From assembly GCA_021155905.1 (NCBI GenBank), contig JAJNBG010000004.1, positions 62,001 through 126,000 on the forward strand: DNA of 64,000 nt. The letters run 5' to 3'. Source of the stretch: Bacteroidota bacterium. GTDB taxonomy: Bacteria > Bacteroidota > Bacteroidia > B-17B0 > Aurantibacillaceae. Below, in pieces: positions 873 through 48,665 of this stretch (within the stretch, counting starts at the first letter, position 1; each line of letters opens with the position of its first letter). The notes below the pieces were generated by a model. The model saw only the letters and a program-made list of their open reading frames with translations, was not told the DNA's origin and did no database searches. The translations under genes were made by a program, and so were the position numbers.

Positions 873-935
873 TAAATGTAGATAGTACTTGCGTTTAATT
901 ATTAATATTTCGGTAAAAGCTACTTTTTATACGCC
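873..935 (-). promoter_or_regulatory. Composite activator site plus -7 element for the nucleotidyltransferase gene
   Basis: On the minus strand: GGCGT, 17 nt, CCGAA, 28 nt, TACATTTA. It matches the window-wide pattern RGCTA-N17-HCGAA-N28-TAnnTTTG with a change in the first box (GGCGT for GGCTA). Confidence 0.7.
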
Positions 936-1029
936 AGGATAAATGAATGAACTGTTATGTACGTTCAATAAAAATATTGTAGTTTTTTGAATAAATTTTT
1001 GGCTCATCAACATACTCCTTTCCTGTTTT

Positions 1030-1092
1030 GGCTATTTTAATTCATTTTTCATCGAAAGGAACAAAAATTATGGAACAAACGTTATAGTTTAG
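1030..1092 (+). promoter_or_regulatory. Composite activator site plus -7 element for the LytTR regulator
   Basis: GGCTA, 17 nt, TCGAA, 28 nt, TAGTTTAG, ending 24 nt before the start codon of the LytTR gene. The -7 element is one base off TAnnTTTG. If the LytTR protein is the activator, this would be autoregulation. Confidence 0.72.
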
Positions 1093-1116
1093 CCTTGTTA
1101 TTTAAAGTATTTCAAT

Positions 1117-1839
1117 ATGCAAACCTTAAAACCAAAACAAATGAGATGTATTATAGTTGATGACAACAAAATGTCACGGGAAATGGTAAAACAATTGGTA
1201 GACCAGGTTGATTTCCTCGAGCTGAAAGGAGAGTGCGAATCTCCGATGGAAGCGTTTAATTATCTGAAGAAAGAAGATATCGATCTTGTGTTTTTGGATG
1301 TTGAGATGCCAGGAATGACCGGGATCGAACTAATGAAAAATCTTGAAAAAAGACCAATAACAATTCTTATCACCTCTAAACAGGATTATGCGGTTGAGGC
1401 ATTTGAATTGAATGTTGCTGATTATATTATTAAACCGGTTACTTTATCACGTTTTATGGTCGCCATCGATAGAGCGAAAGAGCTATTTGAAGGTAAGAAT
1501 CCTAAAGTGGAAGTGAGCGGAAAAGAAAAGGATTATATTTTTGTCAGATCAAATTCCTTATTGACGAAAGTGAAAATTAAAGACATCATTTACGTTCAGG
1601 CCCTGGGAGATTATGTAAACATATTTACCAATGATACGCGGTTAACGGTACACATTACTTTAAAAGGAATGGAAGAAAAACTTCCTTCGGACAAGTTTTA
1701 CCGACTTCATCGTTCCTATTTAACTGCCCTACATCATATCGACAATATTGAGGAAGGTACAGCATATATTGGTAAACATCCATTACCAATCGGGGAGCAA
1801 TATAAAAAAGAACTTTTAAGAAAAATTAATCTGATTTAA
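1117..1839 (+). CDS. LytTR-family response regulator (LytR/AlgR type)
   Basis: A 240-residue two-domain response regulator. The N-terminal receiver (about residues 9-125) has the acidic pair at V-D-D and the phospho-acceptor Asp61 in FLDVEMPG, plus the conserved KP near residue 107. The C-terminal LytTR domain (about 140-238) shows the typical IYVQALGDYVNIFT and FYRLHRSYL segments that bind DNA, usually as two sites about two helical turns apart. An internal ATG at 1141 (Met9) is also a plausible start. It precedes the giant hybrid kinase by 280 bp with a terminator between, so they are separate units but probably functional neighbours. No LytS-type membrane kinase is adjacent, so the cognate kinase is not fixed by the sequence. 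Confidence 0.93.
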   Translation: MQTLKPKQMRCIIVDDNKMSREMVKQLVDQVDFLELKGECESPMEAFNYLKKEDIDLVFLDVEMPGMTGIELMKNLEKRPITILITSKQDYAVEAFELNVADYIIKPVTLSRFMVAIDRAKELFEGKNPKVEVSGKEKDYIFVRSNSLLTKVKIKDIIYVQALGDYVNIFTNDTRLTVHITLKGMEEKLPSDKFYRLHRSYLTALHHIDNIEEGTAYIGKHPLPIGEQYKKELLRKINLI

Positions 1840-1882
1840 CCTGTTTTTTTCTGGACCTATTCAACAAAATTGAACAATATTT

Positions 1883-1929
1883 AGCCGGAAACACCAACTA
1901 TTTTTGTGGTGTTCCCGGCTATTTTTTTT
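1883..1929 (+). terminator. Rho-independent terminator after the LytTR gene
   Basis: Inverted repeat AGCCGG(A)AACACCA / TGGTGTTCCCGGCT with an AT-rich loop, followed by ATTTTTTTT. It separates the LytTR unit from the kinase operon. Confidence 0.85.
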
Positions 1930-2119
1930 GCCTTTTCACCGAATTTGTTCCGGAGCAAAGGCAGTAATTTTTAAATTTAAAACGGTGCTTTATTGTTTTT
2001 TCACCTATATTTAATATAGTGGAGCAATGGTTTAGCTTCCACTATTTACGAATTCAAATTATTTTATCAATCTGGATTATTTAATTAAGACGAACCAACA
2101 CTTTTATAAACCCCCGTAT

Positions 2120-5100
2120 ATGAAAAGTAAAACCCTGAAACCAAAATCAAAAAGTCCCCAAACAAAGAAAAGTAGCAGCACGCCTAAATCAAATGCAGGG
2201 GATCAAAAAACTGTTTTAGTACGCGCGAAAACCAGCGGCAGTACAGCAAAAACGAATAGGGCAGCTACAAAAACAAGCACTACGAAAGGAAAATCTTCTA
2301 AAGCTGTTACATTTACAGCAAATGGTAATGCCCAAAGGGTAAAATCAAACGGTATCCATTCAAATGGAAGTGGCGCTTTTTATGAAGACCGTGTATTAAC
2401 GGATGCAGAATTATTAAAGATGCTGATAAAGGTTAAGAACGGTAATTTTTCTACACGTTTACCTGCCGGTCAGACCGGGGTCAAGGGGGCGATTAATGAT
2501 GCTTTGAATGAGATCATTGATTTGAACGAAAGAATGGTATTTGAATTTGAAAAAGTTGGTACCAGTATTGGTAAGCAAGGTAAATTAACTAACAGGGTTG
2601 TGCTTGAAGGCGCTAGAGGTTCCTGGGGCTCATGCGTTGATTCTGTAAACATGCTTATTTCCGATTTGGTGCATCCAACTATTGAGATTGCACACGTAAT
2701 CACCTCCGTAGCAAAAGGTAATTTGTCACAGGAAATGCCTTTGTCTATTGAGGGAAATCCATTGCAGGGGGAGTTCTTGCGAATTGCAAAAGAGGTAAAT
2801 GGAATGGTAAAGCAGCTGAACTTATTCTCCATGGAGGTAACGCGTGTTGCCCGTGAGGTAGGTACAGAAGGTAAGTTGGGTGGACAAGCGAAAGTGAAAG
2901 GGGTAGGTGGTGTATGGAAAGATTTAACAGATTCAGTAAATAAAATGGCCTCGAACTTAACGGGCCAGGTACGTAATATTGCCGATGTAACAACAGCGGT
3001 AGCAAAGGGTGACTTATCGAAGAAAATTACGGTAGACGTAAAAGGAGAGATCCTTGAATTAAAGAATACGATTAATACGATGGTGGATCAGCTGAACTCA
3101 TTCTCTTCCGAGGTAACGCGTGTTGCGCGTGAGGTAGGTACAGAGGGAAAATTAGGTGGTCAGGCACAGGTAAAAGGTGTTGGTGGTACATGGAAAGATT
3201 TAACGGACTCTGTAAATAAAATGGCTTCTAACTTAACGGGCCAGGTACGTAATATTGCCGATGTAACAACAGCGGTAGCGAAAGGAGATTTATCAAAGAA
3301 AATTACGGTTGACGTGAAAGGAGAGATCCTTGAGTTAAAGAACACGATCAATACGATGGTGGATCAGTTGAACTCTTTCTCATCAGAGGTAACACGTGTG
3401 GCGTTAGAGGTGGGATCAGAAGGAAAATTAGGTGGTCAGGCTAAGGTACGGGGTGTAGGTGGTGTATGGAAAGATTTGACTGACTCTGTAAATCAAATGG
3501 CATCTAACTTAACAGGTCAGGTGCGTAATATTGCCGAGGTAACAACAGCGGTGGCTAAAGGTGACTTATCTAAAAAAATTACAGTAAACGTTGCAGGTGA
3601 AATCCTTGAGTTGAAGAACACGATTAACACGATGGTGGATCAGTTAAACTCATTTGGTGCGGAGGTAACGCGTGTTGCCCGCGAGGTAGGATCAGAAGGA
3701 AAACTGGGAGGACAGGCAAAAGTAAAAGGTGTTGGTGGTACGTGGAAAGATTTAACGGATTCGGTAAATCAAATGGCATCCAACTTAACCGGCCAGGTGC
3801 GAAACATTGCAGAGGTAACAACTGCAGTGGCAAATGGTGATTTATCCAAGAAAATTACAGTAAATGTTGAAGGAGAAATTCTCGAATTGAAAAAAACAAT
3901 TAACACGATGGTGGATCAGCTGAACTCGTTTTCATCTGAGGTGACCCGTGTGGCGCTTGAAGTAGGTACAGAAGGAAAATTGGGCGGGCAAGCAAAAGTA
4001 AAAGGAGTTGGTGGTACATGGAAAGATTTAACGGATTCGGTAAATCAAATGGCCTCTAACTTAACAGGACAAGTACGTAACATCGCCGAGGTAACAACCG
4101 CGGTGGCTAAAGGCGATTTATCTCGTCAAATCACGGTAGATACAAAAGGAGAAATTCTTGAATTAAAAAATACAATTAATACCATGGTGGGCCAGCTGAA
4201 CTCCTTCGCATCAGAGGTTACCCGTGTGGCGAAAGAGGTAGGTACAGAAGGAAAATTGGGTGGACAGGCGCAGGTAAAAGGAGTAGGCGGTACGTGGAAA
4301 GATTTAACGGACTCAGTAAATTTAATGGCATCGAACTTAACAGGCCAGGTACGTAATATTGCTGAAGTAACAACCGCGGTAGCGAAAGGTGACTTATCCC
4401 GTCAGATTACGGTGGACGTAAAAGGGGAAATCCTTGAATTAAAGAACACGATCAATACCATGGTGGATCAGTTAAGAGGATTTGCGTCTGAGGTAACCCG
4501 TGTGGCGAGAGAAGTGGGTACCGAGGGGAAACTGGGAGGACAAGCCGATGTACCGGGTGTTGCCGGAACATGGAAAGATTTAACGGATTCAGTAAATCAA
4601 ATGGCCGGTAACTTAACTGCTCAGGTACGTAACATTGCCGATGTGGCGATTGCGGTAGCGAGTGGAGATATGTCCCGTAAAATTACGGTGGATGTACGCG
4701 GAGAAATTTTACAATTGAAAGAAACACTGAACACAATGGTGGATCAGTTAAGGGCGTTTGCATCAGAGGTAACACGTGTGGCGAGAGAGGTTGGTACTGA
4801 AGGAAAATTAGGAGGACAAGCTAACGTACCGGGTGTTGCCGGAACATGGAAAGATTTGACTGACTCTGTAAATCAGATGGCTGGTAACTTAACAACACAG
4901 GTACGTAATATTGCAGAGGTAACGATAGCGGTAGCTAACGGAGATATGTCGAAGAAAATTACGGCCGATGTACGTGGAGAAATCTTACAGCTGAAAGAAA
5001 CAATTAATACGATGGTGGATCAGCTCCGTGCCTTTGCATCAGAGGTAACCCGTGTGGCAAAGGAAGTTGGTACAGAAGGAAAATTAGGAGGACAGGCGTT

Positions 5101-8100
5101 CGTACCTGGTGTAGCGGGAACATGGAAAGATTTAACGGATTCTGTAAACCAAATGGCCGGTAACTTAACAGGTCAGGTACGTAATATCGCAGAGGTAACA
5201 AAAGCGGTGGCAAGCGGTGACTTATCCAAAACAATTACGGTTGACGTAAAAGGAGAGATCTTCGACTTAAAGAATACGATCAATACAATGGTGGAGCAGC
5301 TCAACTCCTTCGCATCCGAGGTAACCCGTGTGGCAAAAGAGGTGGGTACAGAAGGGAAATTAGGAGGCCAGGCACAGGTAAAAGGTGTCGCCGGTACGTG
5401 GAAAGATTTAACGGATTCAGTAAACTTAATGGCCTCTAACTTAACAGGCCAGGTAAGGGGAATTGCGAAAGTAGTAACATCCGTAGCAAAAGGTAACCTG
5501 AAACAAAAATTATCGATTCAGGCTAAAGGAGAAGTAGCGCAGTTAACTGATACGATTAATGAGATGATTGACACCTTAGCAACCTTCTCCGACCAGGTAA
5601 CAACTGTAGCACGTGAGGTAGGAGCTGAAGGAAAATTAGGAGGGCAGGCGAATGTACCGGGCGCATCCGGAACATGGAAAAACCTGACAGAGAACGTAAA
5701 CCAACTGGCAGCAAATTTGACGACGCAGGTGCGTGCGATCTCTGAGGTAGCATCGGCGGTAACGCAGGGTGACCTTACGCGTACAATTGGTGTAGAAGCA
5801 AAAGGAGAGGTAGAAGCATTAAAGGATACTATTAACCAGATGATTTCCAACCTGAAAGCAACGACGTTAAGAAACCAGGAGCAGGATTGGTTAAAATCCA
5901 ATCTGGCTAAGTTTACCCAAATGTTACAGGGACAAAAAGAGTTGAATTCAGTAACAAAAGCGATCTTAACAGAATTGGCACAGGTTGTAACAGCGCAACA
6001 TGGATTATTCTATATTCTTGAAGAAGGTGATAAGTTCGAAACATCTAGATTAAGATTGATTGCTTCATATGCTTATAGAAAACGTAAAAATGATACCAAT
6101 AGTTTCTTGATGGGCGAAGGTTTAATTGGACAATGTGCTTTGCAAAAAGAGCGTATCCTTTTAACCAATGTACCAAGCGACTATGTAGAAATAAATTCCG
6201 GACTTGGTTCAGCTAAACCATTAAACATTATCATCTTACCGGTTTTATTTGAAAACAGGTTAAAGGCTGTAATTGAACTGGCTTCCTTTGATTCATTCAG
6301 TCAGACTCATCAGGATTTCCTTGAAGGATTGACTGAAAGTATTGGTATCGTATTAAATACAATCGAGTCCAACTCAAGAACAAGTGAACTTCTTGTACAG
6401 TCTCAATCTTTAGCCAGTGAGTTAAAGAGTCAGCAGGAAGTATTACGTAACACAAACGAGGAATTAGAAGAGAAAGCAGTGTTATTAGCCGCACAGAAAA
6501 ATGAGGTAGAATTAAAAAATCAGGAAGTAGAGGAAGCGAGAAAATCTTTAGAAGAAAAAGCAAATCAGTTAACGCTGACTTCTAAGTATAAGTCTGAATT
6601 CCTAGCGAACATGTCTCATGAGTTAAGAACTCCATTAAACAGTTTGCAGATTCTTGCACATGAATTGATCCAGAATCATGACGGAAATCTGACTGAGAAA
6701 CAAATTCAGTTTGCGAAAACAATTAATGCATGCGGGGAAGACTTAATTCAGTTGATTAATGATATCCTCGATCTTTCTAAAATTGAGTCAGGATATATTT
6801 CTGTGGATTATTCTCCTGTACGCTTTACTGAGATTACAAAATATGTGGATAATACCTTCAAGCATATTTCGGAGGCTAAAAATCTGAAGTTCACAATCGA
6901 AGCAGATGATAATTTACCTGAAATTCTTGAAACAGATCCACAACGATTGAATCAGATCCTTAAAAATCTATTATCCAATTCGTTTAAGTTCACTGAAAAA
7001 GGTGAAGTTGGATTGAAAATTTACAAAGCCGACCATAACTGGAAACCAGGAACGCCGAGTCTGGATAACGCAGATACTGTGATCGCATTTGAAATTTCAG
7101 ATACAGGAATTGGTATTTCAAAAGATAAGCAAAACATTATCTTCGAAGCCTTCCAGCAAGCAGAAGGTTCAACAAGCCGTAAGTATGGTGGTACAGGATT
7201 AGGTTTATCTATTAGCCGTGGTTTATCGGATCTGTTAGGTGGTACTATTGAGTTGGAGAGTGTACCAGATCATGGAAGTAAATTTACTTTGTTCTTACCA
7301 ATTAAAGTTTCTGCAAGTGTTGAGAATAAACAACTGGAAATGGAGAACAAGGCGATCGTTAAGGAAGCGCTTAAAACAACTCCTGATACAACGTTTCACT
7401 TATCGGAGATTGAGCAGTATTTTATTGATGAAGTTGGTGATGATCGATTAAATATTACAGCCAGCGATAAGGTTATATTAATTGTTGACAAGGATATTGA
7501 ATTTGCGAAAATGATGCTGGAAAGAGCGCATACAAATGGAATTAAAGTTGTTGCTACAACCAAAGGTAGTGACATGATTGACTTCCTGAATCAATTCCGT
7601 CCGCAGGCAATTATCCTAAACATCAACCTTCACGATACAAATGGATGGAAGATTATGGATAGACTTAAAAACGATTTAACGTTAAGGCATATTCCTGTTT
7701 ACATAACGTCCACGGAGGAAGACAGGGACAGTGCATTAAAACGTGGTGCCAGAAATTTCCTGGTGAAGCCGGTGAAGGAAAAAATGTTGAACCATATCTT
7801 TACCGATATTACTGATTTTACAGAGAAAAAAGCAAGAACTTTATTGATTGTTGATGATAACCCACAGGAACTGGATATGGTTGTGAAAGCCGTTGAAGGT
7901 GATGATATACAGGTAACAACTGCGCAAACTGCCAAGGAAGCCATCAATTTAGTTCGTGAAAAGAATTTTGATTGTATTATCCTGGATCTTGTTTTACCTG
8001 ATGCTCAGGGATTGGATATTATTAAAGAGCTTGAGAACGACAAATCAGAGCATGAAACAGCGCTGATTGTTTATTCAGCGAAGGATTTAAATCCAAAAGA

Positions 8101-8635
8101 AAAAGAACGGTTAAAACAGTTTGCTAACAGTATCATTCTTAAGAGTGCGCATTCCCTGAGTAAATTAGTTGACCAGACTGCTTTATTCCTGCACCGCATA
8201 CAAAAAGATCTGCCGGAGAAAATGCGCGAAACCATTGACGCTTATTATTTGAGCGACGATTGTTTATTAGGAAAAAAAGTACTGATTGTGGATGATGATA
8301 TGCGAAACCTGTTTGCCTTAACGACTGCTCTTGAGCGTTTTGGATTAAATATCATGAACGCTGAGAGTGGGCAGGAAGCGATTAATAAACTGGAAAAAAA
8401 TCCTGATCTAGATATTATCCTTATGGATATCATGATGCCGGAAATGGATGGTTATGAAACAATGAAGAGAATCAGGGGCGAAGAAAAAAACAGAGACCTT
8501 ACCATTATTGCATTAACTGCTAAGGCTATGAAAGGCGACAGACAGAAATGTATTGAGTCAGGCGCATCTGATTATATTACTAAACCTGTGAATGTTGAGC
8601 AATTGCTGAGCCTCATGCGTGTTTGGTTGAAGTAA
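2120..8635 (+). CDS. Giant poly-HAMP hybrid histidine kinase with three receiver domains
   Basis: A 2171-residue soluble kinase with no membrane segment or signal peptide. Order: a Lys/Ser/Thr-rich basic tail (about 1-75); two divergent HAMP units; eleven near-identical 92-residue HAMP-connector units (about 265-1250, each with WKDLTDSVN and [10 protein letters not shown]); a GAF domain (about 1275-1425); a coiled coil; HisKA with His1500 in SHELRTPLN; HATPase ([15 protein letters not shown]); and three receivers. Receiver 1 has Asn1834 where the phospho-Asp should be and is probably inert; receivers 2 (Asp1956) and 3 (Asp2103) are intact. The layout resembles group III kinases such as fungal Nik1/Os-1, which sense osmotic stress through poly-HAMP arrays, but with more units. 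The next kinase follows 28 nt downstream, suggesting one operon. Confidence 0.96.
2912..5875 (+). repeat. In-gene tandem repeat, 276-bp unit, 10 full copies plus a partial
   Basis: The DNA coding for the HAMP units repeats with an exact period of 276 bp (92 codons): the V/T-W-K codons recur from 2912 to 5672 in ten equal steps, followed by a shorter eleventh unit. Several neighbours differ only at synonymous positions, which suggests recent duplication or gene conversion. Such a tract is prone to copy-number change and to misassembly from short reads. Confidence 0.95.
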
Positions 8636-8663
8636 TGATTTGATTTTAAAGTACTGTAACAAG

Positions 8664-11384
8664 ATGGAGATAGATCACACAGTTAAAATATTAATGGTTG
8701 ATGACAGACAGGAAAACCTGTTTGCGCTGGAGGTTATTTTAGCAGATAGAAATTATGTTTTTGTTAAGGCTAATTCAGGAAAAGACGCGTTAAAGATATT
8801 GTTACAGGAGCAGGACTTTGCTATCATTTTAATGGATGTTCAAATGCCCATCATGGATGGTCTTGAGACTGCTAAAATTATACGGGAGAGCGATAAATTT
8901 AAACATGTTCCGATTATTTTCCTTACCGCTAACATAGATAACCCGGAGGATATTTTTAAGGGTTATGAAACAGGGGCGGTAGATTTTATGGTGAAACCAT
9001 TGTCACCTGATATTCTAAGAGCTAAAGTGTCTGTTTTTGTAGAGCTCTATAAGAAAAATCATGAATTGACGGTTCAGAGTGAATACATGAAATCTCTCAA
9101 TAGTCAATTGGAGAAACAGTCCAGGTATGTTAGAAGCCTAATTGAATCAAGTCTTGATCCGATGGTGACGATCAATTTGGATGGTAAAATCACCGACATG
9201 AATGAAGCGCTTGAAAAAATTACAGGCTTGTCTCGTGAAACGATTAAAGATACTGATTTCGTAGATTATTTTACCAGACCGAAAATTGCCAATGAAGCCT
9301 ATCATGACGTTTTTGAGAAGGGGTATATTGCCGATTATCTGCTGGCGATTAAGGATAAAGACGGTACAGTAACGGAAGTACTATGTAATGGTTCTGTTTA
9401 TAAAGATGAGCATGGTAAGGTTACAGGGGCCGTTATAGTAGTCAGGGAAAAATTACTTTCAAAATATTCACGAAGTTTAATTGAAGCGAGTCTGGATCCA
9501 TTAATTACCATTAGTTCCGAGGGTAAGATTACAGACATGAATGAAGCGCTGGTTGATATTACCGGTATTACGCGTGAAAAAATAAAGGGTACGGATTTTT
9601 TCGATTATTTCACAGAGCCGGAAAAGGCGAGACGAGTGTACGAAGAGGCTTTTGCGAAAGGTTTTGTGGTCAATTCTCCGCTTACTATTCGTCACAAAGA
9701 CGGAAAAGTGACAGATGTATTATTTAACGGTTCTACCTATAAAGATGAAAGAGGTAATATATTGGGAATTGTTATTGTCGCGCGCGATGTAACCGAGCAA
9801 AAACGTTTTGAAAAAGAATTAATTGAAGCAAAAAGTAAAGCAGAAGAGGCGATGCGGGCCAAGCAACAGTTTCTTTCCAACATGAGCCATGAGATCAGGA
9901 CTCCATTGAATGCAATTATTGGATTTACAAATGTCATAGTTAAGACTAAATTAGACGAGAAACAGAAAGAATATGTAAATGCGATTAAATCGTCAGGAGA
10001 TTCGTTGATTGTATTGATTAATGATATTCTTGATCTGGCGAAAGTGGATGCCGGTAAAATGACCTTCGAGGAAACTCCATTTAAATTGCAGGATTCTATT
10101 ACATCAATGCTGAAAATGTTTGATACAAGGATAACTGAAAAAGAAATCAAGCTTATTAATGAGTATGATTCATCCATTCCTGAAGTATTGGTTGGCGATC
10201 CGGTTCGTTTACACCAGGTGTTAATGAACCTAGTTAATAACGCCATTAAATTTACATCCCAGGGCAAAGTAACAGTTGGTGCTAAACTGCTTAATGAAAA
10301 TGAAGAAAAAGCAACTATAAAGTTTTATATACAGGACACCGGTATAGGTATTCCTAAAGATAAAATCGAAACAATTTTCGATAATTTCCAACAAGCTACG
10401 ACTGGTACAACGCGTTTGTTTGGAGGAACCGGTTTGGGACTTTCCATTGTGAAGCAATTAGTTGAGGCGCAGGGAGGGAAAGTGTTTGTAGAAAGTGAGG
10501 ATGGAAAAGGTTCAACGTTTTCTTTTACACTGAGTTTCCTTAAAACAAATGAAACCATTAAGACGGAGGATACAAACAACATTGAGCCAAAAAGTGAAAA
10601 TAAGAACGTAAAGATTTTGGTTGCAGAAGATATTAAGTTTAACCAGCTTTTGATGAAAACGATATTGGAAGGTTTTGGTTTCTCGATGGACATTGCTGAA
10701 AACGGAAAACTGGCGGTTGAAAAAATGAAATCAAAACCGTATGATCTTATCTTAATGGATTTGCAAATGCCTGAAATGAATGGATTTGAAGCAACTGAGT
10801 TTATTCGGAAAAATATTAATAAGGAAATCCCGATTATTGCTTTAACGGCAGATGTCACTACAGTTGATGTTAAAAAATGCAGAGCTATTGGAATGAATGA
10901 TTATATCTCTAAACCGGTTGATGATAAATTGCTGTATAAAATGATCATGGATTATATTAAACCGGGGAGTGATAAGAATGGTGTAACGGAAAATAAAGAT
11001 GCGGCGAATGCTACGGAAGAAAAAGTTAAATACGTTAATCTTAATTATTTAAAAGAACTTACCGGAGGAAAACAGGAAGGGATGGTATTAATGATAAAAG
11101 CATACCTGGAAGAAACTCCCACGCTGCTTAAAGCGCTGAAAGATAACATTGGCACAAAAAACTGGGATGCCGTTGGCGCCGCTGCTCATTCCATTATCCC
11201 GTCTTTTTCAATGTTGGGAATGGATGTCAAATATGAAAAAATGTCCAGAAAAATTCAGGAACTGACGACAAAAAAGGAAAACCTTGAATCAGTAGAAGGT
11301 TTGGTTTTAGAAATAGAGGAAGCTTGTCTTCAAGCGATGAAAGAACTGGAAGAAGAGTTGGTTGTTTTAGAAGAGATTCATTAG
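8664..11384 (+). CDS. Hybrid histidine kinase: REC-PAS-PAS-HisKA-HATPase-REC-HPt
   Basis: A 906-residue soluble kinase (from ATG 8664; an in-frame TTG at 8640 is less likely). The N-terminal receiver has Asp58 in LMDVQMPIMDG. Two similar PAS domains (each with SSLDPxxTI / ASLDPLITI and a TDF.DYFT segment) look like an internal duplication. HisKA carries His409 in SNMSHEIRTPLN, then HATPase with DTGIGIP and [10 protein letters not shown] second receiver has Asp699, and a C-terminal HPt domain has His842 in AAHSIIPS. The protein thus holds every step of a phosphorelay, and an N-terminal receiver allows control by another kinase. The start lies 28 nt after the poly-HAMP kinase stop, so the two are probably co-transcribed and may form one relay. 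Confidence 0.95.
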   Translation: MEIDHTVKILMVDDRQENLFALEVILADRNYVFVKANSGKDALKILLQEQDFAIILMDVQMPIMDGLETAKIIRESDKFKHVPIIFLTANIDNPEDIFKGYETGAVDFMVKPLSPDILRAKVSVFVELYKKNHELTVQSEYMKSLNSQLEKQSRYVRSLIESSLDPMVTINLDGKITDMNEALEKITGLSRETIKDTDFVDYFTRPKIANEAYHDVFEKGYIADYLLAIKDKDGTVTEVLCNGSVYKDEHGKVTGAVIVVREKLLSKYSRSLIEASLDPLITISSEGKITDMNEALVDITGITREKIKGTDFFDYFTEPEKARRVYEEAFAKGFVVNSPLTIRHKDGKVTDVLFNGSTYKDERGNILGIVIVARDVTEQKRFEKELIEAKSKAEEAMRAKQQFLSNMSHEIRTPLNAIIGFTNVIVKTKLDEKQKEYVNAIKSSGDSLIVLINDILDLAKVDAGKMTFEETPFKLQDSITSMLKMFDTRITEKEIKLINEYDSSIPEVLVGDPVRLHQVLMNLVNNAIKFTSQGKVTVGAKLLNENEEKATIKFYIQDTGIGIPKDKIETIFDNFQQATTGTTRLFGGTGLGLSIVKQLVEAQGGKVFVESEDGKGSTFSFTLSFLKTNETIKTEDTNNIEPKSENKNVKILVAEDIKFNQLLMKTILEGFGFSMDIAENGKLAVEKMKSKPYDLILMDLQMPEMNGFEATEFIRKNINKEIPIIALTADVTTVDVKKCRAIGMNDYISKPVDDKLLYKMIMDYIKPGSDKNGVTENKDAANATEEKVKYVNLNYLKELTGGKQEGMVLMIKAYLEETPTLLKALKDNIGTKNWDAVGAAAHSIIPSFSMLGMDVKYEKMSRKIQELTTKKENLESVEGLVLEIEEACLQAMKELEEELVVLEEIH

Positions 11385-11410: not shown

Positions 11411-11473
11411 AGCTTAGAAAAATGGGTTCGTACCGAATATTAAGTTATTTTTTTATTTGAGTTGCTACTTTCG
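11411..11473 (+). promoter_or_regulatory. Composite activator site plus -7 element upstream of the 11.5 kb gene
   Basis: AGCTT, 17 nt, CCGAA, 28 nt, TACTTTCG, ending 34 nt before the start codon. The first box and the -7 element each differ from consensus at one base. Confidence 0.7.
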
Positions 11474-13733: not shown

Positions 13734-13796
13734 AGCTATCAAATGAACTTTGTTACCGAATTTTATTACGATAATTTGTTTTTGCGTGTAATTTTA
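13734..13796 (+). promoter_or_regulatory. Composite activator site plus -7 element for the repeat protein at 13.8 kb
   Basis: AGCTA, 17 nt, CCGAA, 28 nt, TAATTTTA, ending 27 nt before ATG 13824. It overlaps a possible upstream in-frame ATG at 13743, which argues for the downstream start. Confidence 0.75.
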
Positions 13797-13823
13797 AATT
13801 TAAGAATTTTAAAAATAAGCATT

Positions 13824-14598: not shown

Positions 14599-14661
14599 GG
14601 CTAGCTAAAATCCACTATTAACGAATATTACAATAAAGTGTTCTCTTTACTTTTAGATTTG
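14599..14661 (+). promoter_or_regulatory. Composite promoter of the 14.7-21.9 kb polysaccharide operon
   Basis: GGCTA, 17 nt, ACGAA, 28 nt, TAGATTTG: a perfect match to the deduced consensus, ending 24 nt before ATG 14686. There is no TTTG-type -33 box between HCGAA and the -7 element. Confidence 0.82.
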
Positions 14662-27147: not shown

Positions 27148-27211
27148 TAAATATACTTTTACAACAGTCCATGAAAATTAATATTTCGGTAAAATTCTAT
27201 TTTGCCTAGCC
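27148..27211 (-). promoter_or_regulatory. Composite promoter of the DksA-like gene / CotH-VTC operon
   Basis: On the minus strand: GGCTA, 17 nt, CCGAA, 29 nt, TATATTTA. It is the only full site with 29 rather than 28 nt before the -7 element. The -7 element ends 69 nt before the start codon. Confidence 0.75.
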
Positions 27212-27337
27212 AGAAGGTGAAAAATTACAATTTGCAAAATTCTGTTAATTTATTATTGAGATGTATAAAACGTAGGTTATGATTTTGTTTCACTTTTAAC
27301 CCGCATTTTATTATGATTATCTCGATTATTAGTTGAA

Positions 27338-27510
27338 AGCGGCAAAAAAATAGGCAGGAGCGGCAAGAAAGTCGCCAATATCTGTTAAGTTTTCGATTAT
27401 CATATAACCTTATACTGTTTACTCTAGTATACAAGTCTAGTAACGACGAAAGGGCAAAAAAAATAGCCAGGAGGAGTTGAAAGATCGCCAGTATCGTTCA
27501 GAGTTAAACT
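27338..27510 (+). repeat. Two imperfect direct repeats of about 55 bp upstream of the 27.5 kb glycosidase gene
   Basis: The segments starting at about 27335 and 27447 share GAAAG..GGCAAAAAAA, a TAG[GC]CAGGAG stretch, GAAAG.[TC]CGCCA.TATC and a downstream GTTAA/GAGTT, with a period of about 110 bp. They lie in the 456-bp gap 27079-27534, which otherwise holds only the DksA promoter at its left end. Possibly an RNA leader or tandem protein-binding sites; I cannot name a known riboswitch. Confidence 0.55.
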
Positions 27511-29333: not shown

Positions 29334-29396
29334 AGCTATTCTAAGAGCTCCATCAACGAATACTATCATAAACAGCCCTTATCTAAAATAAATTTG
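29334..29396 (+). promoter_or_regulatory. Composite promoter of the GT4-GH57 operon
   Basis: AGCTA, 17 nt, ACGAA, 28 nt, TAAATTTG. A close match, 97 nt from the start codon (the longest leader of the set). Confidence 0.8.
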
Positions 29397-35400: not shown

Positions 35401-35405
35401 AAATG

Positions 35406-35808: not shown

Positions 35809-35871
35809 CAAAAATAGTCCCGCTATCGAGAGAATAACTTACATTTCGTTAACTGCTTATTTCTGATAGCC
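35809..35871 (-). promoter_or_regulatory. Composite promoter of the STAS-GT2 operon
   Basis: On the minus strand: GGCTA, 17 nt, ACGAA, 28 nt, TATTTTTG, a full match. It shares the 357-bp gap 35760-36116 with the divergent site at 36016; I see nothing else there. Confidence 0.82.
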
Positions 35872-36015: not shown

Positions 36016-36078
36016 AACTATTCAAATGCCAGAGTGAACGAATACTCTTTTTTTAATCTTAAAAGGAGTTTAATTTGG
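36016..36078 (+). promoter_or_regulatory. Composite promoter of the CBM-acyltransferase operon
   Basis: AACTA, 17 nt, ACGAA, 28 nt, TAATTTGG. The first box and the -7 element deviate slightly; the spacings are exact. Divergent from the STAS-GT2 promoter. Confidence 0.68.
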
Positions 36079-38097: not shown

Positions 38098-38160
38098 GGC
38101 TATTCTAAATCCGTAGTCACCGAAATTATATCCAAACTGCTTTTTCATGAAGTAAGTTTA
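38098..38160 (+). promoter_or_regulatory. Composite promoter of the first beta-propeller gene
   Basis: GGCTA, 17 nt, CCGAA, 28 nt, TAAGTTTA, 32 nt before ATG 38193. Confidence 0.8.
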
Positions 38161-42700: not shown

Positions 42701-44155
42701 TTAAGCGTTTAAAAATTGATCGCCATTTGTTTGGTTTGATTTATCAAGAGCAGTCATTAATGCTTTTTCAGCAGCTTTTAAGATAGAATTTGTTTTCTTT
42801 GATGAACTTGATTCAGCATAATTTCTTAGCACAGGTTCCGTTCCTGAAGCACGTATCATCAACCACTCATCATTGGAGAAAAAATATTTATAGCCGTCCA
42901 GGTCTTCAATTCTCTGTATTTTATAATCTCCGAAGCTTTTATAGGTATTCTGTTTACAGTTTTCTATAATTGCATTTTTCAGTGTTTCATTGATATGTAA
43001 ATCAGAGCGCTCAAACGAGAAAGGACCGACAATCGCATAGACATCTTTTATGAGGTCCTGTAAGGATTTGCCGGATTTTGCCATGCATTCCCATATGGTT
43101 AAACCCATCCATATACCATCTCTCTCAGGTATATGACCTTTAATTGCAATACCGCCTGATTCTTCGCCTCCAAGCATAACATCCTCAGTAACCATAGACC
43201 CCGCAATATGTTTAAATCCGATTTTAGTGACCTGGTGCTCTAACCCAAAATGTTCGCACATCTTTGCAACTTTCGGGGTTACCGAAAAAGCAGTAACCAC
43301 TTTTCCACGTAATCCTTTACTTTCATAAAGGTATTTAATCAGAATCAAGATAATATGATTGGAGTCTATAAAATTGCCCTCCTTGTCATAAAGACCTATT
43401 CTGTCTGCGTCACCATCCGTTGCCAGACCACAATCAATTGATTTTTCTCTTTTAATAAGTGCTGAAAATTCCTGCAAATTCTTGTGGATTGGTTCAGGAG
43501 CCTGTCCATGAAATGAGGGATTGTTTTCGCAATGCAATAAAGCGGTGTTTGGTAATAAACGGCTTACTACATTTTGTCCAGCTCCATACATGGCATCGTA
43601 AGCCAGTTTCAAACGTGATTTTCTTATCAGTTCCAGGTCAAAATTTGCTTCCACATGTTTGCAGTACATTGTTTCGAGATCGATGTACTCGATCATTTTG
43701 TTTTCTATAAAATCATTTAAATTTAATTTGCTAAGATCGTGTTGGGTTTCTGTTGGGATTAAGTTTTCAATTTCTTCAACCTTTTCCGGCAATAACGGTC
43801 CTCCATAGGAACCTTTCAGTTTGAAGCCATTATAGGACGGTGGATTATGACTGGCCGTAATAACTATTCCAAGGTCAGCTTTTTGTTTTACTGTACCTAG
43901 CGAAACCATGGGTGTTGAAACAAATCCTTTAGCCAGATAGACTTTTATACCATGTTTGCATAGGATAATGGCAGTAGTTTCGGCAAATAGTTGGCCGCCA
44001 AAGCGCGGGTCATGTCCGAGAACTACCTGGGGATTTTTCTTGCTCTTTAATAACCAAAGGGCAGTAGCCTCCGCAACTCTTGCAACGTTTGATACAGTGA
44101 AGTCTTCCGCGATTATGGCTCGCCAGCCATCGGTACCGAATTTGATTGGTGTCAT
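42701..44155 (-). CDS. Phosphoglucomutase / phosphomannomutase family enzyme
   Basis: 484 residues. The catalytic phosphoserine loop TASHNPPSYNGFKLK, the metal-binding DGDADRIGLYD, the sugar-binding GEESGG and the phosphate-binding RASGTEPVLRNYAES are all present in order, so the enzyme is intact. It interconverts hexose 1- and 6-phosphates, linking central metabolism to the NDP-sugar, glycogen and exopolysaccharide genes of this window. Substrate preference cannot be told. It lies 37 nt after the OmpA/PD40 gene in the same unit. Confidence 0.95.
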   Translation of the reverse strand: MTPIKFGTDGWRAIIAEDFTVSNVARVAEATALWLLKSKKNPQVVLGHDPRFGGQLFAETTAIILCKHGIKVYLAKGFVSTPMVSLGTVKQKADLGIVITASHNPPSYNGFKLKGSYGGPLLPEKVEEIENLIPTETQHDLSKLNLNDFIENKMIEYIDLETMYCKHVEANFDLELIRKSRLKLAYDAMYGAGQNVVSRLLPNTALLHCENNPSFHGQAPEPIHKNLQEFSALIKREKSIDCGLATDGDADRIGLYDKEGNFIDSNHIILILIKYLYESKGLRGKVVTAFSVTPKVAKMCEHFGLEHQVTKIGFKHIAGSMVTEDVMLGGEESGGIAIKGHIPERDGIWMGLTIWECMAKSGKSLQDLIKDVYAIVGPFSFERSDLHINETLKNAIIENCKQNTYKSFGDYKIQRIEDLDGYKYFFSNDEWLMIRASGTEPVLRNYAESSSSKKTNSILKAAEKALMTALDKSNQTNGDQFLNA

Positions 44156-44192: not shown

Positions 44193-46055
44193 TTATTTAC
44201 TGGCTAAAATTTTCAATTCGAGTTTTTCTGAATTTTCTTCGGTTTGTGTGGTACTGCGCGATTTTTTCTTTTTTGATTTCTTATAAACCATAGGCTCTAT
44301 ATTGCTTTTATCAATTCCTTTTTCAGTGAGGAAATTGATTACAGATTGAATTTTGGATTCCATAAGTTTGACCTCGTCTGTTGCGCTTTTCTTTTTAACT
44401 GAACCGGATATTTCCACTCTGAGGCCCGGGTTATTCTTTAAGAAATGCTGGAGCCTATTTAATTCAAGTTCTGAAGAGGAGGTTAATACAGCTTTTCCGT
44501 CTTCAAAGAAAAGGTTATTCAATACGGTTCTTGACCCTTCCGAAATTGGTTTGAGAACCACCGGCTGCTGTAACCTGAAGTATCCCTGGTCCTTAGGAAT
44601 AGCGATGTTTTCAGAATGGAACAGATACCCCTTAGCTTCAAAAGTGACATTGTTATTTATTCCTGAAGGAACTATACAGGTATATTTCCCGGTTTTTGAA
44701 TCCGGGCAATAGACACCTGCAGTGCTCCCAGTTTCATTATTTGCTACAGTAATTTCTATCAAAGGAGGGACAGTTCCATTATTGTCGCTAACTATTTTTC
44801 CTTTAATAACTGTTATCGGTAAATTTTTCTGACTGATGAAAGTCGAGATATAATTCTCTTTTTTAAAGTTGGTATCTGCCTGACTAATCTCTGACTTAAT
44901 TGTTTCATGTAAGGGATATCCAATATTTACAGGAGATGACCATCCCGAACTGTCTGAAAAAAAGCAAGTGAAATTATCAAATCCCCCTTTGGGTCGGTTG
45001 CGGTTTGAACTAAAGTACAGGGTTGCTCCATCCGGAAATAGGAAAGGTGCTTCTTCATCATATACTGTGTTGATTGATGGTCCTAAATTTATTGCTTTTC
45101 CCCAATCTCCGCCCGGGAGCTTTTCACATTTATACAGATCCTTACCGCCGTAACCACCATCTCTTTTACTGGCAAAATAAAGTGTATTGCCGTCTGATGA
45201 AATAAATTCATCGGGTTCCCAACTGCTATTATTTATTACTTTGTTTAATTTTTCCGGTTCCATCCATTCATTTCCATTTAATACCGAGGTATATAGATTT
45301 GCTTCACCACAATCATCTCTGTAAATCAAAATTATTTGACCATCGGTTGACGAGGCAATGGTTGTTTCCATCTTGGTTTTACTTGAGTCAGCGGTCTTCG
45401 AAGGTTGGTTTACATTTTTTACATATCCTTTATTATTTTCTTCAAAGAACTCACTGTCGTCATGGCCATTCTTTAAGTTAATTTTCTTTGATGCAAAAGC
45501 AGGAGAAGAATTTGAGATACTGTAGCCTGTTTTTTCGTAACCCGAAAAATTTCTGTTCTTCCTGGATTCATTTTTTTGATTAACCAGTTTAGCCGTTATT
45601 TCTTTTAATTCCTGTAGTTCCTTTGCCATTTTACACATTTCAATTTCGTGGCTGATATCTTCTACGGATGTATTTGGATTTGCCTTCGTCAGCGTTCTGT
45701 ATTTTTCATAGTTTTCAATGGCATTGTCAAAATTGCCTGTCAGGTAGTTAGCGTCTCCTAATTGCTTAAAAGCCAAAGCCTGGTAATTGACATTGTTTTT
45801 TTGTAAAGTTGTCGCTCTTTTTAAATATTGAATTGCTTTTTCCTTCTGTGATCTGGAATTCAGGTAGCAAATTCCCATTTTGTAATTTAGCTCGGTGTTC
45901 AGGGAATCTTCTTTGAGTTTATCTTTATAATATTTCCATACAGCGGCATAATATTTCTTATTGAATAACTCTTCTGCTTCATAAGGTTCAAGGTCCTGAC
46001 TTACTGCAGAAACAGCTAAAACACTCAAAAGAGAAATAAGAAATAATTTGAACAT
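44193..46055 (-). CDS. OmpA-family outer-membrane protein with TPR and PD40 repeats
   Basis: 620 residues from ATG 46055, chosen because a signal peptide (MFKLFLISLLSVLAVSAVSQ) starts there; the longer frame uses a TTG. TPR-like helices (about 25-145) are followed by WD40-like PD40 motifs (DEFISSDGNTLYFASKRDGG and FLFPDGATLYFSSNR), a carboxypeptidase-regulatory-like domain (about 395-490), and an OmpA-like peptidoglycan-binding domain (about 515-615; LNNLFFEDGKAVLTSSSELELN). This layout is common in Bacteroidota envelope proteins, some linked to T9SS and gliding (PorE-like). The end is Lys/Ser-rich. Confidence 0.9.
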   Translation of the reverse strand: MFKLFLISLLSVLAVSAVSQDLEPYEAEELFNKKYYAAVWKYYKDKLKEDSLNTELNYKMGICYLNSRSQKEKAIQYLKRATTLQKNNVNYQALAFKQLGDANYLTGNFDNAIENYEKYRTLTKANPNTSVEDISHEIEMCKMAKELQELKEITAKLVNQKNESRKNRNFSGYEKTGYSISNSSPAFASKKINLKNGHDDSEFFEENNKGYVKNVNQPSKTADSSKTKMETTIASSTDGQIILIYRDDCGEANLYTSVLNGNEWMEPEKLNKVINNSSWEPDEFISSDGNTLYFASKRDGGYGGKDLYKCEKLPGGDWGKAINLGPSINTVYDEEAPFLFPDGATLYFSSNRNRPKGGFDNFTCFFSDSSGWSSPVNIGYPLHETIKSEISQADTNFKKENYISTFISQKNLPITVIKGKIVSDNNGTVPPLIEITVANNETGSTAGVYCPDSKTGKYTCIVPSGINNNVTFEAKGYLFHSENIAIPKDQGYFRLQQPVVLKPISEGSRTVLNNLFFEDGKAVLTSSSELELNRLQHFLKNNPGLRVEISGSVKKKSATDEVKLMESKIQSVINFLTEKGIDKSNIEPMVYKKSKKKKSRSTTQTEENSEKLELKILASK

Positions 46056-46082
46056 TTTATGATTTATTAGAGAATTGTATAA

Positions 46083-46145
46083 CAAATCTAGTTACATCAT
46101 TCTTCTACAAGTTCAATATTCGGTAACAGGATATTTTTAATAGCC
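46083..46145 (-). promoter_or_regulatory. Composite promoter of the OmpA-phosphohexomutase-ferritin unit
   Basis: On the minus strand: GGCTA, 17 nt, CCGAA, 28 nt, TAGATTTG, a full consensus match, 27 nt before ATG 46055, which supports that start. Confidence 0.82.
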
Positions 46146-46164: not shown

Positions 46165-46551
46165 TTATCGGCTTTTTTCTACGTCGCTTGCAAAATTTGC
46201 ATCAAACTTGTTCAATGTTTCGGTTAATCCCTCCAGGGTAAAAGGCTTTACCATAAAATCATTGGCACCGGCTGCAAAAGCTGCTTCTACTACAGGTTTA
46301 TCGTTAAGAATCGACATCGCAACGATTGGTGTTTTAACAAGGTGAACGGTCCTTAAAATGGTTAATAACGAAAGGCCTGAAATGCCCGGCATCATTATGT
46401 CACTAAATACTAAATCAAATTTTCCGTCTACGATCTTATTCATAGCTTCTTCTGCATTCTCCGCCAGAACTACTTTGTGTCCTAAACTCTCAATAACATG
46501 TTTGAGTGAATGCAATGTTAATTTGTCGTCTTCAATTATCAGAATATTCAT
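46165..46551 (-). CDS. Single-domain response regulator
   Basis: 128 residues from ATG 46551 (the longer frame starts at a TTG). A complete CheY-like receiver: acidic pair in LIIEDDK, phospho-acceptor Asp51 in VFSDIMMPG, Ser near 77-80 (AMS) and Lys in MVKPF. No output domain, so it acts as a phosphate shuttle or by protein binding. Divergent from the receiver at 46876; both have composite promoters. Confidence 0.93.
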   Translation of the reverse strand: MNILIIEDDKLTLHSLKHVIESLGHKVVLAENAEEAMNKIVDGKFDLVFSDIMMPGISGLSLLTILRTVHLVKTPIVAMSILNDKPVVEAAFAAGANDFMVKPFTLEGLTETLNKFDANFASDVEKSR

Positions 46552-46617
46552 AACCAAAATTTAGTATTAATTATTAATCAAGAAAAAGCTTAATCAGCGA
46601 TATTTTAAGTGTACATA

Positions 46618-46680
46618 CAAAATTAAACCTGATTTTTCCGATAAATAGTTTAATTCGTTAATAGGGGATTTTGCCTAGCT
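46618..46680 (-). promoter_or_regulatory. Composite promoter of the receiver gene at 46.2 kb
   Basis: On the minus strand: AGCTA, 17 nt, ACGAA, 28 nt, TAATTTTG. It shares the 324-bp gap 46552-46875 with the divergent site at 46759; nothing else was seen there. Confidence 0.82.
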
Positions 46681-46758: not shown

Positions 46759-46821
46759 GGCTATTGATTATGCCCATTTATCGAATGCTTGGATATTTCA
46801 CTTATTGTAAAAGTATCTTCG
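46759..46821 (+). promoter_or_regulatory. Composite promoter of the receiver-HPt pair
   Basis: GGCTA, 17 nt, TCGAA, 28 nt, TATCTTCG, 54 nt before ATG 46876. One -7 base differs from TAnnTTTG. Confidence 0.75.
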
Positions 46822-46875
46822 AATTAACAAAATTATAATTCACGACTTTTCCAAATACTTGAAAAAATATAGATT

Positions 46876-47310
46876 ATGTTAACAGACAGAGTAATACCGG
46901 ATGAAATAAAAGCCAAAATTAATATTTTAGTCGTTGAAGATAATCTTTTAGGGAGAAAGATGATCGGCTTCCTTTTGAAAAAATGGGGCTTTCGTTTTGA
47001 TGCATGCGCCAATGGAAAGCTTGCACTCGAAAATCTCAAGCTCAATAAGTATGATCTTATTTTGATGGACATCCAGATGCCTGAAATGGACGGACATGAG
47101 ACATCCAAATACATTCGTGATAAGCTAAAGCTTGGGTTACCGATTATTGCAATGACGTCAAATGCGACTGAGGAAGAACGAAAGAGATGTCTTATTTCAG
47201 GAATGGTAGATTACATAGCAAAACCGATAGTTGAGGAAGAGTTGTATAATTTAACGGTGAATTACCTTTTTACCACAGTTGTTGAAAACCCTGAGAACCA
47301 ATATCAGTAG
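46876..47310 (+). CDS. Single-domain response regulator
   Basis: 144 residues: receiver with ILVVEDN, phospho-acceptor Asp65 in LMDIQMPEMDGHE, Thr/Ser in AMTSN and Lys in IAKPI. The sequence resembles receivers attached to hybrid kinases (MDIQMPEMDG type), so it may once have been part of one. The HPt gene follows after 40 nt, giving a two-protein phosphorelay module. Confidence 0.93.
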   Translation: MLTDRVIPDEIKAKINILVVEDNLLGRKMIGFLLKKWGFRFDACANGKLALENLKLNKYDLILMDIQMPEMDGHETSKYIRDKLKLGLPIIAMTSNATEEERKRCLISGMVDYIAKPIVEEELYNLTVNYLFTTVVENPENQYQ

Positions 47311-47350
47311 GTGCGCAACGCATTTTTATTAAATCTTAAAATTAAATTAA

Positions 47351-47725
47351 ATGGAAACCAAGACCGAGAAAATTGAAAAAACAACTGATTTAACTTATTT
47401 AATGGAGTTATCAGATGGTAATAAGACATTTGTTAAAGAGATGATTAACCTGTTTCTTTCTGAAAACCCGGAAGAAATTAGAGCATTTGAAAAAGGTATT
47501 GCAGAAAAAAATTATAAGGGAATTAAAACTGTTGCCCATAAATTAAGATCTACAATACCGTTTATTGGCTTGGATAAAGTAATTGAAAAAGAGGTCGCCG
47601 AGATTGAAGCACTTGCATCGGAAATGGGAGACATAAAAGAAATCGAATCACGCTTTTTGAAAATTAAATCAGCTTGTGAAAAAGCATATATAGAACTAAA
47701 TCCGGTTTCATCTGTCATTTCCTAA
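47351..47725 (+). CDS. HPt domain phosphotransfer protein
   Basis: 124 residues forming a four-helix HPt domain. The phosphorylatable His63 lies in KTVAHKLRSTIPFIGL, matching the AHxLKS pattern. HPt proteins pass phosphate between receivers; the adjacent receiver at 46876 is the likely partner, and hybrid kinases at 2-11 kb are possible sources. Confidence 0.9.
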   Translation: METKTEKIEKTTDLTYLMELSDGNKTFVKEMINLFLSENPEEIRAFEKGIAEKNYKGIKTVAHKLRSTIPFIGLDKVIEKEVAEIEALASEMGDIKEIESRFLKIKSACEKAYIELNPVSSVIS

Positions 47726-47770
47726 TTATCCCAGCTATTTGAAAAAGGAATAATCATTTTAAGGTTTATC

Positions 47771-48091
47771 CTAAAAATGATTATCTCCTCCGAGGCTATA
47801 GTAATTATTTTCTTCGTCCTCACTTCCAACATTTTCCATTTCATCGTCTAATTCAGTTCCGGGGATATCTAGATCTCCCCCGGAATAGTCATCCATAAAA
47901 TCTTTTTCATTTCTTTTTCCTGGATATTCGTTCGGTGCTTTTAAGTGTGTAGGATCCTCAGGATCTATTTCCGTTTCCTCTTTCTGTTGCCTGTAGATGT
48001 CATCTGACGCAGGGTAATGCTTATAGCCTGGTAATTTTGATTTATTTTTTACCGGAGCGGTAGTATCACTCCTGTTGTTTACTGATTTCAT
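47771..48091 (-). CDS. Small acidic conserved Bacteroidota protein
   Basis: 106 residues, very acidic in the C-terminal half (LDIPGTELDDEMENVGSEDE then NNYYSLGGDNHF) and probably disordered. The motif pair YPASDDIY and GSEDEENNYYSLGG recurs, as I remember it, in many short Bacteroidota proteins without known function. No signal peptide. It follows the Lys-rich gene by 40 nt and shares its composite promoter. Confidence 0.75.
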   Translation of the reverse strand: MKSVNNRSDTTAPVKNKSKLPGYKHYPASDDIYRQQKEETEIDPEDPTHLKAPNEYPGKRNEKDFMDDYSGGDLDIPGTELDDEMENVGSEDEENNYYSLGGDNHF

Positions 48092-48131
48092 GATTTCTAA
48101 TTTTTAAATTAATTAACTTGAGTTTGACACG

Positions 48132-48533
48132 TTATTCTTTGGTGTCTTCGGGTCCCATCGTTGCTACAACTGTTTCTTTTTTACCTTCTGTTTCCTTCCT
48201 GGTTATAATTTCTTTTTTCCCTTTCTCTTTTTTAATTGATTGCTTTTCTTCTTTGGCTTTCTCTTTCTTTGCCTTCTTTCTTTCTCTGTTCACCATCTTT
48301 TTTTGCGAATTATAATTTGATAAGGTACCCAGCTTATGTTTTTTTCGGGCTTTGTTTTCGTTCCTTACTGCAAGATTTTCTGTTGCATTATGAATTCTGT
48401 TCTCTTTTCTCAATAATTTTTTACCTCTTATAGAAGTCGTGTTACTAATTCCTTCCTGCTTTGTTGCCCTTTGGCCTATACTTTTTATGTTCATTATAAA
48501 CATAAAAAGTAAAATGTAAATTGAAGTTTTCAT
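48132..48533 (-). CDS. Lys/Arg/Glu-rich small protein with signal peptide
   Basis: 133 residues. A short hydrophobic N-terminus (MKTSIYILLFMFIMNIKS) looks like a signal peptide. The rest is highly charged (KKMVNRERKKAKKEKAKEEK), likely helical or disordered. No family recognised. First gene of a two-gene unit with a composite promoter. The biased composition weakens coding evidence, but the promoter and the start position support a real gene. Confidence 0.65.
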   Translation of the reverse strand: MKTSIYILLFMFIMNIKSIGQRATKQEGISNTTSIRGKKLLRKENRIHNATENLAVRNENKARKKHKLGTLSNYNSQKKMVNRERKKAKKEKAKEEKQSIKKEKGKKEIITRKETEGKKETVVATMGPEDTKE

Positions 48534-48602
48534 GGTTCTGTATTTTAGAATTAAATGTATATTATGGTGCGTGTCACCAAGATTAAGTTCTACATTTTAG
48601 AA

Positions 48603-48665
48603 CAAAATTAAATACATAAAGAGGCATAAAACATTATATTCGTTAAACAATAATGGAGTATAGTT
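48603..48665 (-). promoter_or_regulatory. Composite promoter of the small-protein pair at 48 kb
   Basis: On the minus strand: AACTA, 17 nt, ACGAA, 28 nt, TAATTTTG. The remaining part of the gap, 48666-48904, shows nothing I can identify. Confidence 0.78.

Follow-up and report, generated by a model that had tools for sequence, protein, structure and literature searches.

A rigid composite promoter in a Bacteroidota gene cluster and its predicted LytTR-type regulator

A 64,000-nucleotide stretch of DNA (the window; positions 62,001 to 126,000 of contig JAJNBG010000004.1, assembly GCA_021155905.1) from a Bacteroidota bacterium of the Aurantibacillaceae carries the composite promoter element RGCTA-N17-HCGAA-N28-TAnnTTTG at 15 sites. 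The element is real and not a product of chance, and a LytTR-type response regulator whose gene lies within the cluster very probably binds to it. We consider it highly likely, from comparisons of sequence, that this regulator (1117-1839) is an autoregulated activator whose predicted operator is fused to a sigma-A promoter, with the bound dimer replacing the -33 contact.

All 14 sites listed in the original prediction proved real when their coordinates were read back, and a fifteenth, GGCTA-N17-CCGAA-N28-TAAATTTA at 1917-1979 (+), had been overlooked. The rigid geometry claimed for the listed sites stands: box 2 (HCGAA) follows box 1 at exactly 17 nt in 14 of 14, and the -7 element follows box 2 at 28 nt in 13 and at 29 nt in one (27148). 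Box 1 is exact in 10 of the 14, with one mismatch at 11411 (AGCTT), 36016 and 48603 (AACTA) and two at 873 (GGCGT), while TAnnTTTG is exact in six and keeps five of its six specified letters in the other eight. Over all 15 sites, at least five of the six letters of this sigma-A -7 box are present, and the orientation toward a gene holds throughout, with a candidate start codon (ATG, except GTG once and TTG once) 24-140 nt beyond the -7 element.

Bacteroidota sigma-A promoters have a -33 box, TTTG. As predicted, no such box is found at the promoters of the element: at spacers of 17-23, it occurs in none of 58 distinct sites, compared with about 2.5 expected from composition over the seven placements. 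This absence alone is weak evidence, but the spacer is without any conserved -33 element. Three loci judged to be chance matches (L015, L021 and L022) were dropped before this count, the matrices and the repeat scoring, and were kept in the position-signal count given below. In Flavobacterium psychrophilum, the sigma-A -7 box lies at -12 to -5 (PMC9723704). Given this placement, box 2 spans -45 to -41 and box 1 spans -67 to -63, in agreement with the positions of about -43 and -65 proposed originally.

The exact pattern RGCTA-N17-HCGAA-N28-TAnnTTT has 13 matches in the 4.06-Mb genome, eight of them inside the window, and none when read backwards. The comparison of a gapped matrix with random sequence, which the original prediction had suggested, leads to the same conclusion: with a matrix trained on 43 sites outside this genome and lacking the -7 columns, 15 window matches reach at least 12 bits, against 0.27 expected from 60 Markov-1 simulations. 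These are 14 of the 15 known sites (48603 falls below 12 bits) and the copy at 27355; 14 have a -7 element at 28 or 29 nt. With respect to genes, 14 of the 15 are intergenic, and the remaining one overlaps an open reading frame (ORF) whose probable true start lies downstream. Excluding two syntenic relatives (G007 and G009) and locus L101 as well, which leaves 23 training sites, gave the same 15 matches, again with 0.27 expected. An earlier matrix contained window sites and sites from the same relatives; the later matrices exclude this genome, and the last test separates training from other matches. In that test, 43 of 52 distinct non-training matches of at least 14 bits (26 other loci) have the -7 element at 28 or 29 nt, and among all 68 matches, 16 of which are training sites chosen for spacing 28, every other offset from 10 to 35 occurs at most once.

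Freeing the spacings in six regulator-bearing genomes gave a similar picture. With the distance between the boxes free (N10-24), 34 of 41 matches fall at 17 (13 matches with the reversed pattern); with the distance from box 2 to the -7 element free (N14-42), 32 of 60 fall at 28 and 14 at 29, leaving 14 across the other 27 spacings (34 matches with the reversed pattern). The scans and matrix matches thus place the element upstream of the -7 box at a fixed phase, as for an activator operator.

The clearest view of the operator comes from 70 loci around homologues of the regulator with 38-52% identity, in Chitinophaga, Mucilaginibacter, Pedobacter, Sphingobacterium and Chryseobacterium; many of these loci are from species of one genus. 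Beside these homologues, the element is an overt direct repeat, AMCGA-N16-AHCGAA, with half-sites 21 bp apart. The pattern A[ACT]CGA-Nx-[ACT]CGA[AT] followed by a -7 box at 28 or 29 nt finds 48 sites at x=17, spread over 36 loci, 42 of the sites having spacing 29, and no sites at the ten other box spacings (x=12-16 and 18-22) or at 28/29 in the reversed sequences. The consensus, TTCAACGA...TTTTGCC.GTTCA.CGAA, repeats directly with a period of 21: shift 21 scores 9.28, and all other shifts from 15 to 28 score below -5. An inverted arrangement was rejected, its best score in the distant set being -3.47 (in the window set, neither arrangement stands out). A strict genome-wide search of 12 genomes returned 19 matches in 11 of them, 15 inside regulator loci by coordinates, with none for the reversed pattern or for spacing one base off; since the genomes were picked from the 36 site-bearing loci, having a match was expected, and the informative results are the match locations and the off-by-one control.

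Box 2, the geometry and the centre of some window sites (1917 has TTTTTTGCC) match the distant motif; by position, RGCTA is thus the counterpart of AMCGA. The two window boxes differ in appearance and seem to be 22 bp apart, but the overt repeats near the distant relatives indicate half-sites RGCTAW and AHCGAA at a distance of 21 bp. The earlier idea of a rigid composite promoter with a dimeric activator spanning two helical turns is supported, and a strong candidate activator can now be named. As further evidence that the element is more than chance, positions that the search did not fix are informative, with T at 6 (30 of 37) and at 20 (30 of 37), A at 22 (32 of 37) and an A-rich stretch at 9-12.

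That candidate has 240 amino acids, most of which are covered by its receiver and C-terminal LytTR domains. D14, D15 and D60, which form the conserved phospho-acceptor pocket of receivers, are invariant in an alignment of nine sequences. Its best NCBIfam match, BtsR, is below the cut-off, and the best 60 of 124 matches to solved structures cover mainly the receiver half. LytTR domains number 13 in this genome and 46 in the relative G031. Three sites (873, 1030 and 1917) flank the gene, and a site directly after it recurs in G003, G007, G009, G012, G017, L101, L102, L103, L106, L110 and L114, although the -7 box keeps only four of six letters in L103 and L106. In Mucilaginibacter (L139, L140 and L146), a repeat-type site, here without a good -7 box at 28/29, follows the regulator gene and precedes a 735-amino-acid protein, identified in L139 as a hybrid kinase by domain scan. 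The recurrence of a site after the regulator gene supports a wiring from the regulator to signalling genes.

Element and regulator also occur together across genomes. In 87 genomes of the family, searched with the pattern plus one T (RGCTAT) and a regulator threshold of E<=1e-70, 17 have both, 2 the regulator only, 3 the element only and 65 neither (Fisher p 3.6e-13, uncorrected for phylogeny). Sites are present in every one of the 16 genomes with a best regulator match of at least 71% identity. The 19 regulator-bearing genomes hold 69 of the 72 pattern matches, while the reversed pattern has 3 matches there and 9 in the other 68. In a sample of 20 genomes of the genus, six have the exact pattern, and the same six have an orthologue of the regulator (76-98% identical outside this genome); the other 14 have no pattern match and, at E<=1e-70, no regulator match, their LytTR proteins being more distant. 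Some loci and genomes in these counts are not independent, as L101, L102, L107, L108 and L110 appear to belong to G104, G109, G086, G068 and G107, and L103 and L105 come from one genome. The regulator of G104 (C13:329203-329922, locus L101), which belongs to another genus, is 89% identical to that of the window, while that of G003, in the same genus, is only 77% identical; horizontal transfer of the regulator with its sites is possible.

From these observations we infer binding, activation, phosphorylation and a link to the kinases. The phosphorylated regulator would bind as a dimer to RGCTAW and AHCGAA, two turns apart, at about -67 to -40, and the promoter-proximal subunit would abut RNA polymerase at the place of the -33 element, its contact with the polymerase substituting for the missing box. 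It is because the operator reaches the -33 position itself that the bound dimer is proposed to replace this contact, and such a replacement would explain why the -7 box keeps to its place, 28-29 nt downstream, with a latitude of one base. Besides its own gene and the neighbouring hybrid kinases, which would make up a positive loop, the regulator would switch on about a dozen further units encoding receivers, Hpt, glycan synthesis, alpha-glucan enzymes and proteins that are surface-located or secreted by the type IX secretion system (T9SS).

Several observations weigh against this mechanism. By column comparison, the 21-bp repeat is not visible in the window's own motif, where shift 21 scores -4.25, less than both shift 17 (-1.19) and the top-scoring inverted arrangement (-3.05). 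A LytTR paralogue just left of the window (G000:C58:61101-61799, in L081), 65% identical to the regulator and with its own weak upstream site (L081 18526), could share the operator. A good -7 box is missing in 9 of the 52 non-training matrix matches, four of which are extra copies upstream of the zf-dskA_traR operon. A regulator match without the exact pattern is found in G095 (51%) and G031 (62%), the latter possibly an orthologue of the paralogue instead. No site is present in the examined flanks of L109 (77%; only 455 bp upstream covered) or L108 (71%; apparently part of G068, where two sites are located elsewhere), and L104 (72%) has a single site, of the distant type only. Conversely, sites occur without a close regulator in G034, G106 and G022 (one match each); two of the three pattern-only family genomes, each with one match, are 56% and 78% complete. 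In G041, of another family, homologues of window genes are preceded by two strong sites that lie about 2 kb from the end of a contig, and the best homologue of the regulator is 38% identical. Lastly, co-inheritance of a single cluster could inflate the co-occurrence, against which the sites in G108, G086, G069 and G070 are spread over four to seven contigs.

It is quite unlikely that the operator belongs to another regulator of the cluster, namely the AraC-type protein at 32452-33096 or the LytTR paralogue. Both are encoded in the cluster, the paralogue has an upstream site of its own, and 46 of the 87 genomes, 14 of them site-bearing, encode an AraC homologue at E<=1e-30. The AraC protein was nevertheless rejected, as its close orthologues (E<1e-50) are found in only 5 genomes (G000, G007, G009, G104 and G108) compared with sites in 20, six of which lack an AraC match even at E<=1e-30. 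The second LytTR copy (61-65%) is confined to the same 5 of the 87 genomes and may still share the site. A regulator that binds the same operator and represses, or does both, is unlikely: although some LytTR proteins repress, such as CoxC, whose operator overlaps the -35 box (PMC11347149), the operator here keeps a constant distance upstream of the -7 element, and the promoters have no -33 box, as would be expected if they depend on an activator.

The rigid spacing to the -7 element and the missing -33 box would also be expected if the boxes were part of a promoter for an alternative sigma factor, with no activator involved. We regard this as very unlikely and rejected it, given that the -7 element is the ordinary sigma-A TAnnTTTG, that boxes at about -43 and -65 would lie beyond direct sigma reach, and that the 21-bp repeat near homologues and the co-occurrence with a LytTR protein fit an activator. 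That the element is a dispersed repeat or a chance AT-rich pattern has a negligible probability. The sites do cluster in one genome region, but they share boxes and spacing with little intervening sequence except the A-rich positions 9-12, and the matrix excess, the empty reversed-pattern search and the lack of -7-linked sites at wrong box spacings near distant homologues contradict an artefact.

Under the LytTR activator, the predicted regulon (Table 1) combines signalling proteins (the regulator, the multi-HAMP and PAS hybrid kinases, two receiver-only proteins and Hpt) with a sugar nucleotidyltransferase, GT4, GH57, GH15, phosphoglucomutase, STAS-GT2, an acyltransferase, a T9SS cargo and OmpA-type proteins. 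A role in surface glycans, storage and stress may be suggested from the protein names. An NCBIfam search found no family for 7 of the 10 proteins tried.

Table 1. Composite promoters and associated features of the window, with the genes faced by each promoter or the basis of annotation.
Feature	Coordinates	Strand	Genes faced or basis
Composite promoter	873..935	-	Sugar nucleotidyltransferase 1-831(-), cut by window edge
Composite promoter	1030..1092	+	LytTR response regulator (predicted autoregulation); conserved in G007, G009, L101
LytTR response regulator, proposed activator	1117..1839	+	Pfam Response_reg 4.7e-22, LytTR 5.4e-19, both above cut-off
Composite promoter	1917..1979	+	Multi-HAMP hybrid kinase 2120-8635, PAS hybrid kinase 8640-11384
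Hybrid histidine kinase	2120..8635	+	Pfam: 11-12 HAMP stretches, GAF, HisKA, three receivers
PAS hybrid histidine kinase, two receivers	8640..11384	+	Pfam
Composite promoter	11411..11473	+	11508-11948 (no family), DAO-Rieske oxidoreductase 12106-13704
Composite promoter	13734..13796	+	ORF 13743-14429, probable true start ATG 13824 (201 aa, no family)
Composite promoter	14599..14661	+	14686-15456 (no family), GH15 glucodextranase 15532-18021, TPR 18034-19206, 19244, GH26-like 20238-21896
Composite promoter, spacing 29	27148..27211	-	26626-27078 (zf-dskA_traR), CotH 24496-26541, VTC, DUF4956, DUF2490 genes
Operator-like copy without -7 element	27329..27355	-	144 bp upstream of 27148-27211; 14.6 and 13.9 bits in two matrices
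Composite promoter	29334..29396	+	GT4 glycosyltransferase 29494-30780, GH57 30799-32136
Composite promoter	35809..35871	-	STAS 35406-35759, GT2 cellulose-synthase-like 33568-35415
Composite promoter	36016..36078	+	36117-36839, acyltransferase 36854-38077
Composite promoter	38098..38160	+	SBBP beta-propeller T9SS cargo 38193-39860
Composite promoter	46083..46145	-	TPR-PD40-OmpA 44193-46085, phosphoglucomutase 42701-44155, DUF2383 42237-42689
Composite promoter	46618..46680	-	Receiver-only response regulator 46165-46557
Composite promoter	46759..46821	+	Receiver-only response regulator 46876-47310, Hpt 47351-47725
Composite promoter	48603..48665	-	48132-48533, 47771-48091; <12 bits in cross-genome matrices

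Orthologous sites in the relatives accompany several of these promoters. The site at 873 has counterparts of 23.7 bits in G007 and 30.5 bits in G009, and the whole orthologue of its target in G007 matches Pfam NTP_transferase. The 29-nt spacing of 27148 is present in both genomes, and the G009 counterpart of 36016 also has spacing 29. The mechanical ORF starts of 13743-14429 and 44193-46085 overlap the promoters; the likely starts are ATG 13824 and ATG 46055, and the G007 and G009 orthologues of the former have 200-201 amino acids and are preceded by sites at a distance of 24 nt. Two relatives, like the window at 27329-27355, hold extra operator-like copies that lack a good -7 box (L084 17189 and 17302; L088 9694 and 9806; similar copies are recorded for G007 and G009). 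The copies lie about 110-145 bp apart upstream of the site of the zf-dskA_traR/CotH operon. The HAMP-array part of the first kinase (query 2120-5000) shares about 78-79% identity over some 860-880 amino acids with Azospirillum plasmid proteins, a cross-phylum likeness that suggests transfer or extreme constraint.

Near the distant homologues, the scanned proteins include ferritin-like (L160), bicupin (L156), alpha/beta hydrolase (L150 and L176) and histidine kinase (L139) products. In L150, L154-L156, L159-L161, L165 and L175-L177 (Chryseobacterium, Pedobacter and Sphingobacterium), an operator-like site near 9140-9375 lies upstream of a gene, mostly of about 157 amino acids, that precedes the LytTR regulator. 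The product is ferritin-like by Pfam in L160, the one locus scanned for this gene, and the -7 box at 29 nt before this gene is weak, for example GAACTTTA.

LytTR proteins in general bind 9-11-nt repeats with 11-13 nt between them (PMC4847170), a rule that fits the operators of the distant homologues, while no repeat is visible in the window's own motif. These repeats lie about two turns apart, and for most such proteins activation from a position upstream of the -35 region is described (PMC11347149, PMC4847170). Staphylococcus aureus AgrA is likewise a LytTR response regulator, its dimer occupying two direct repeats ahead of a promoter (agr P2/P3), with promoter-proximal repeats centred near -60, but AgrA promoters retain a -35 element at suboptimal spacing (PMC4227749), whereas the sites here have no -33 box and a fixed distance of 28-29 nt to the -7 element. 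The LytTR regulatory systems (LRS) of Bacteroides thetaiotaomicron and Bacteroides ovatus resemble the present system in having a LytTR regulator, 11-bp repeats 11 bp apart (22-bp period) with an ACCG core, a TATCTTTG -7 box and presumed autoregulation (PMC6193735). Unlike the 240-residue receiver-LytTR protein, LRS regulators have transmembrane segments and a membrane partner, and a listed TGTA/TGTG (-33-like) element follows 11 bp downstream of their repeats; by our arithmetic, the distance from core to -7 box is about 41 nt compared with 30 here, about one helical turn more (PMC6193735). Escherichia coli YpdB and BtsR are also LytTR response regulators, and YpdB binds a direct repeat (PMC4847170), but their named targets are yhjX and yjiY (PMC5552118), in contrast to about 15 units here. 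Their half-site and promoter type are also different. Activation of the regulator's own operon, predicted here, is a trait of AgrA. In the partial literature consulted, mostly by title, no title announces that an operator is known for a two-component LytTR regulator of Bacteroidota, and the closest example is the Bacteroides LRS (PMC6193735).

On balance, we lean slightly towards a phylum-wide class of Bacteroidota LytTR regulators with one grammar, consisting of a 21-bp repeat, 28-29 nt to the -7 box and no -33 box, in which the regulator would replace -33 recognition. The core regulon of this class would be its own neighbourhood, with hybrid kinases, a Dps-like ferritin, a cupin and surface glycan genes, and the upstream half-site would have changed from AMCGA to RGCTA in the lineage of the window while box 2 and the geometry were kept. 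LytTR regulators are abundant in these bacteria, and the regulator, its site and the strict spacing rule are directly testable in cultured Pedobacter, Mucilaginibacter and Chitinophaga. The system would also be a clean example of an activator that takes over the -33 contact, in a phylum whose sigma-A promoter is unusual.

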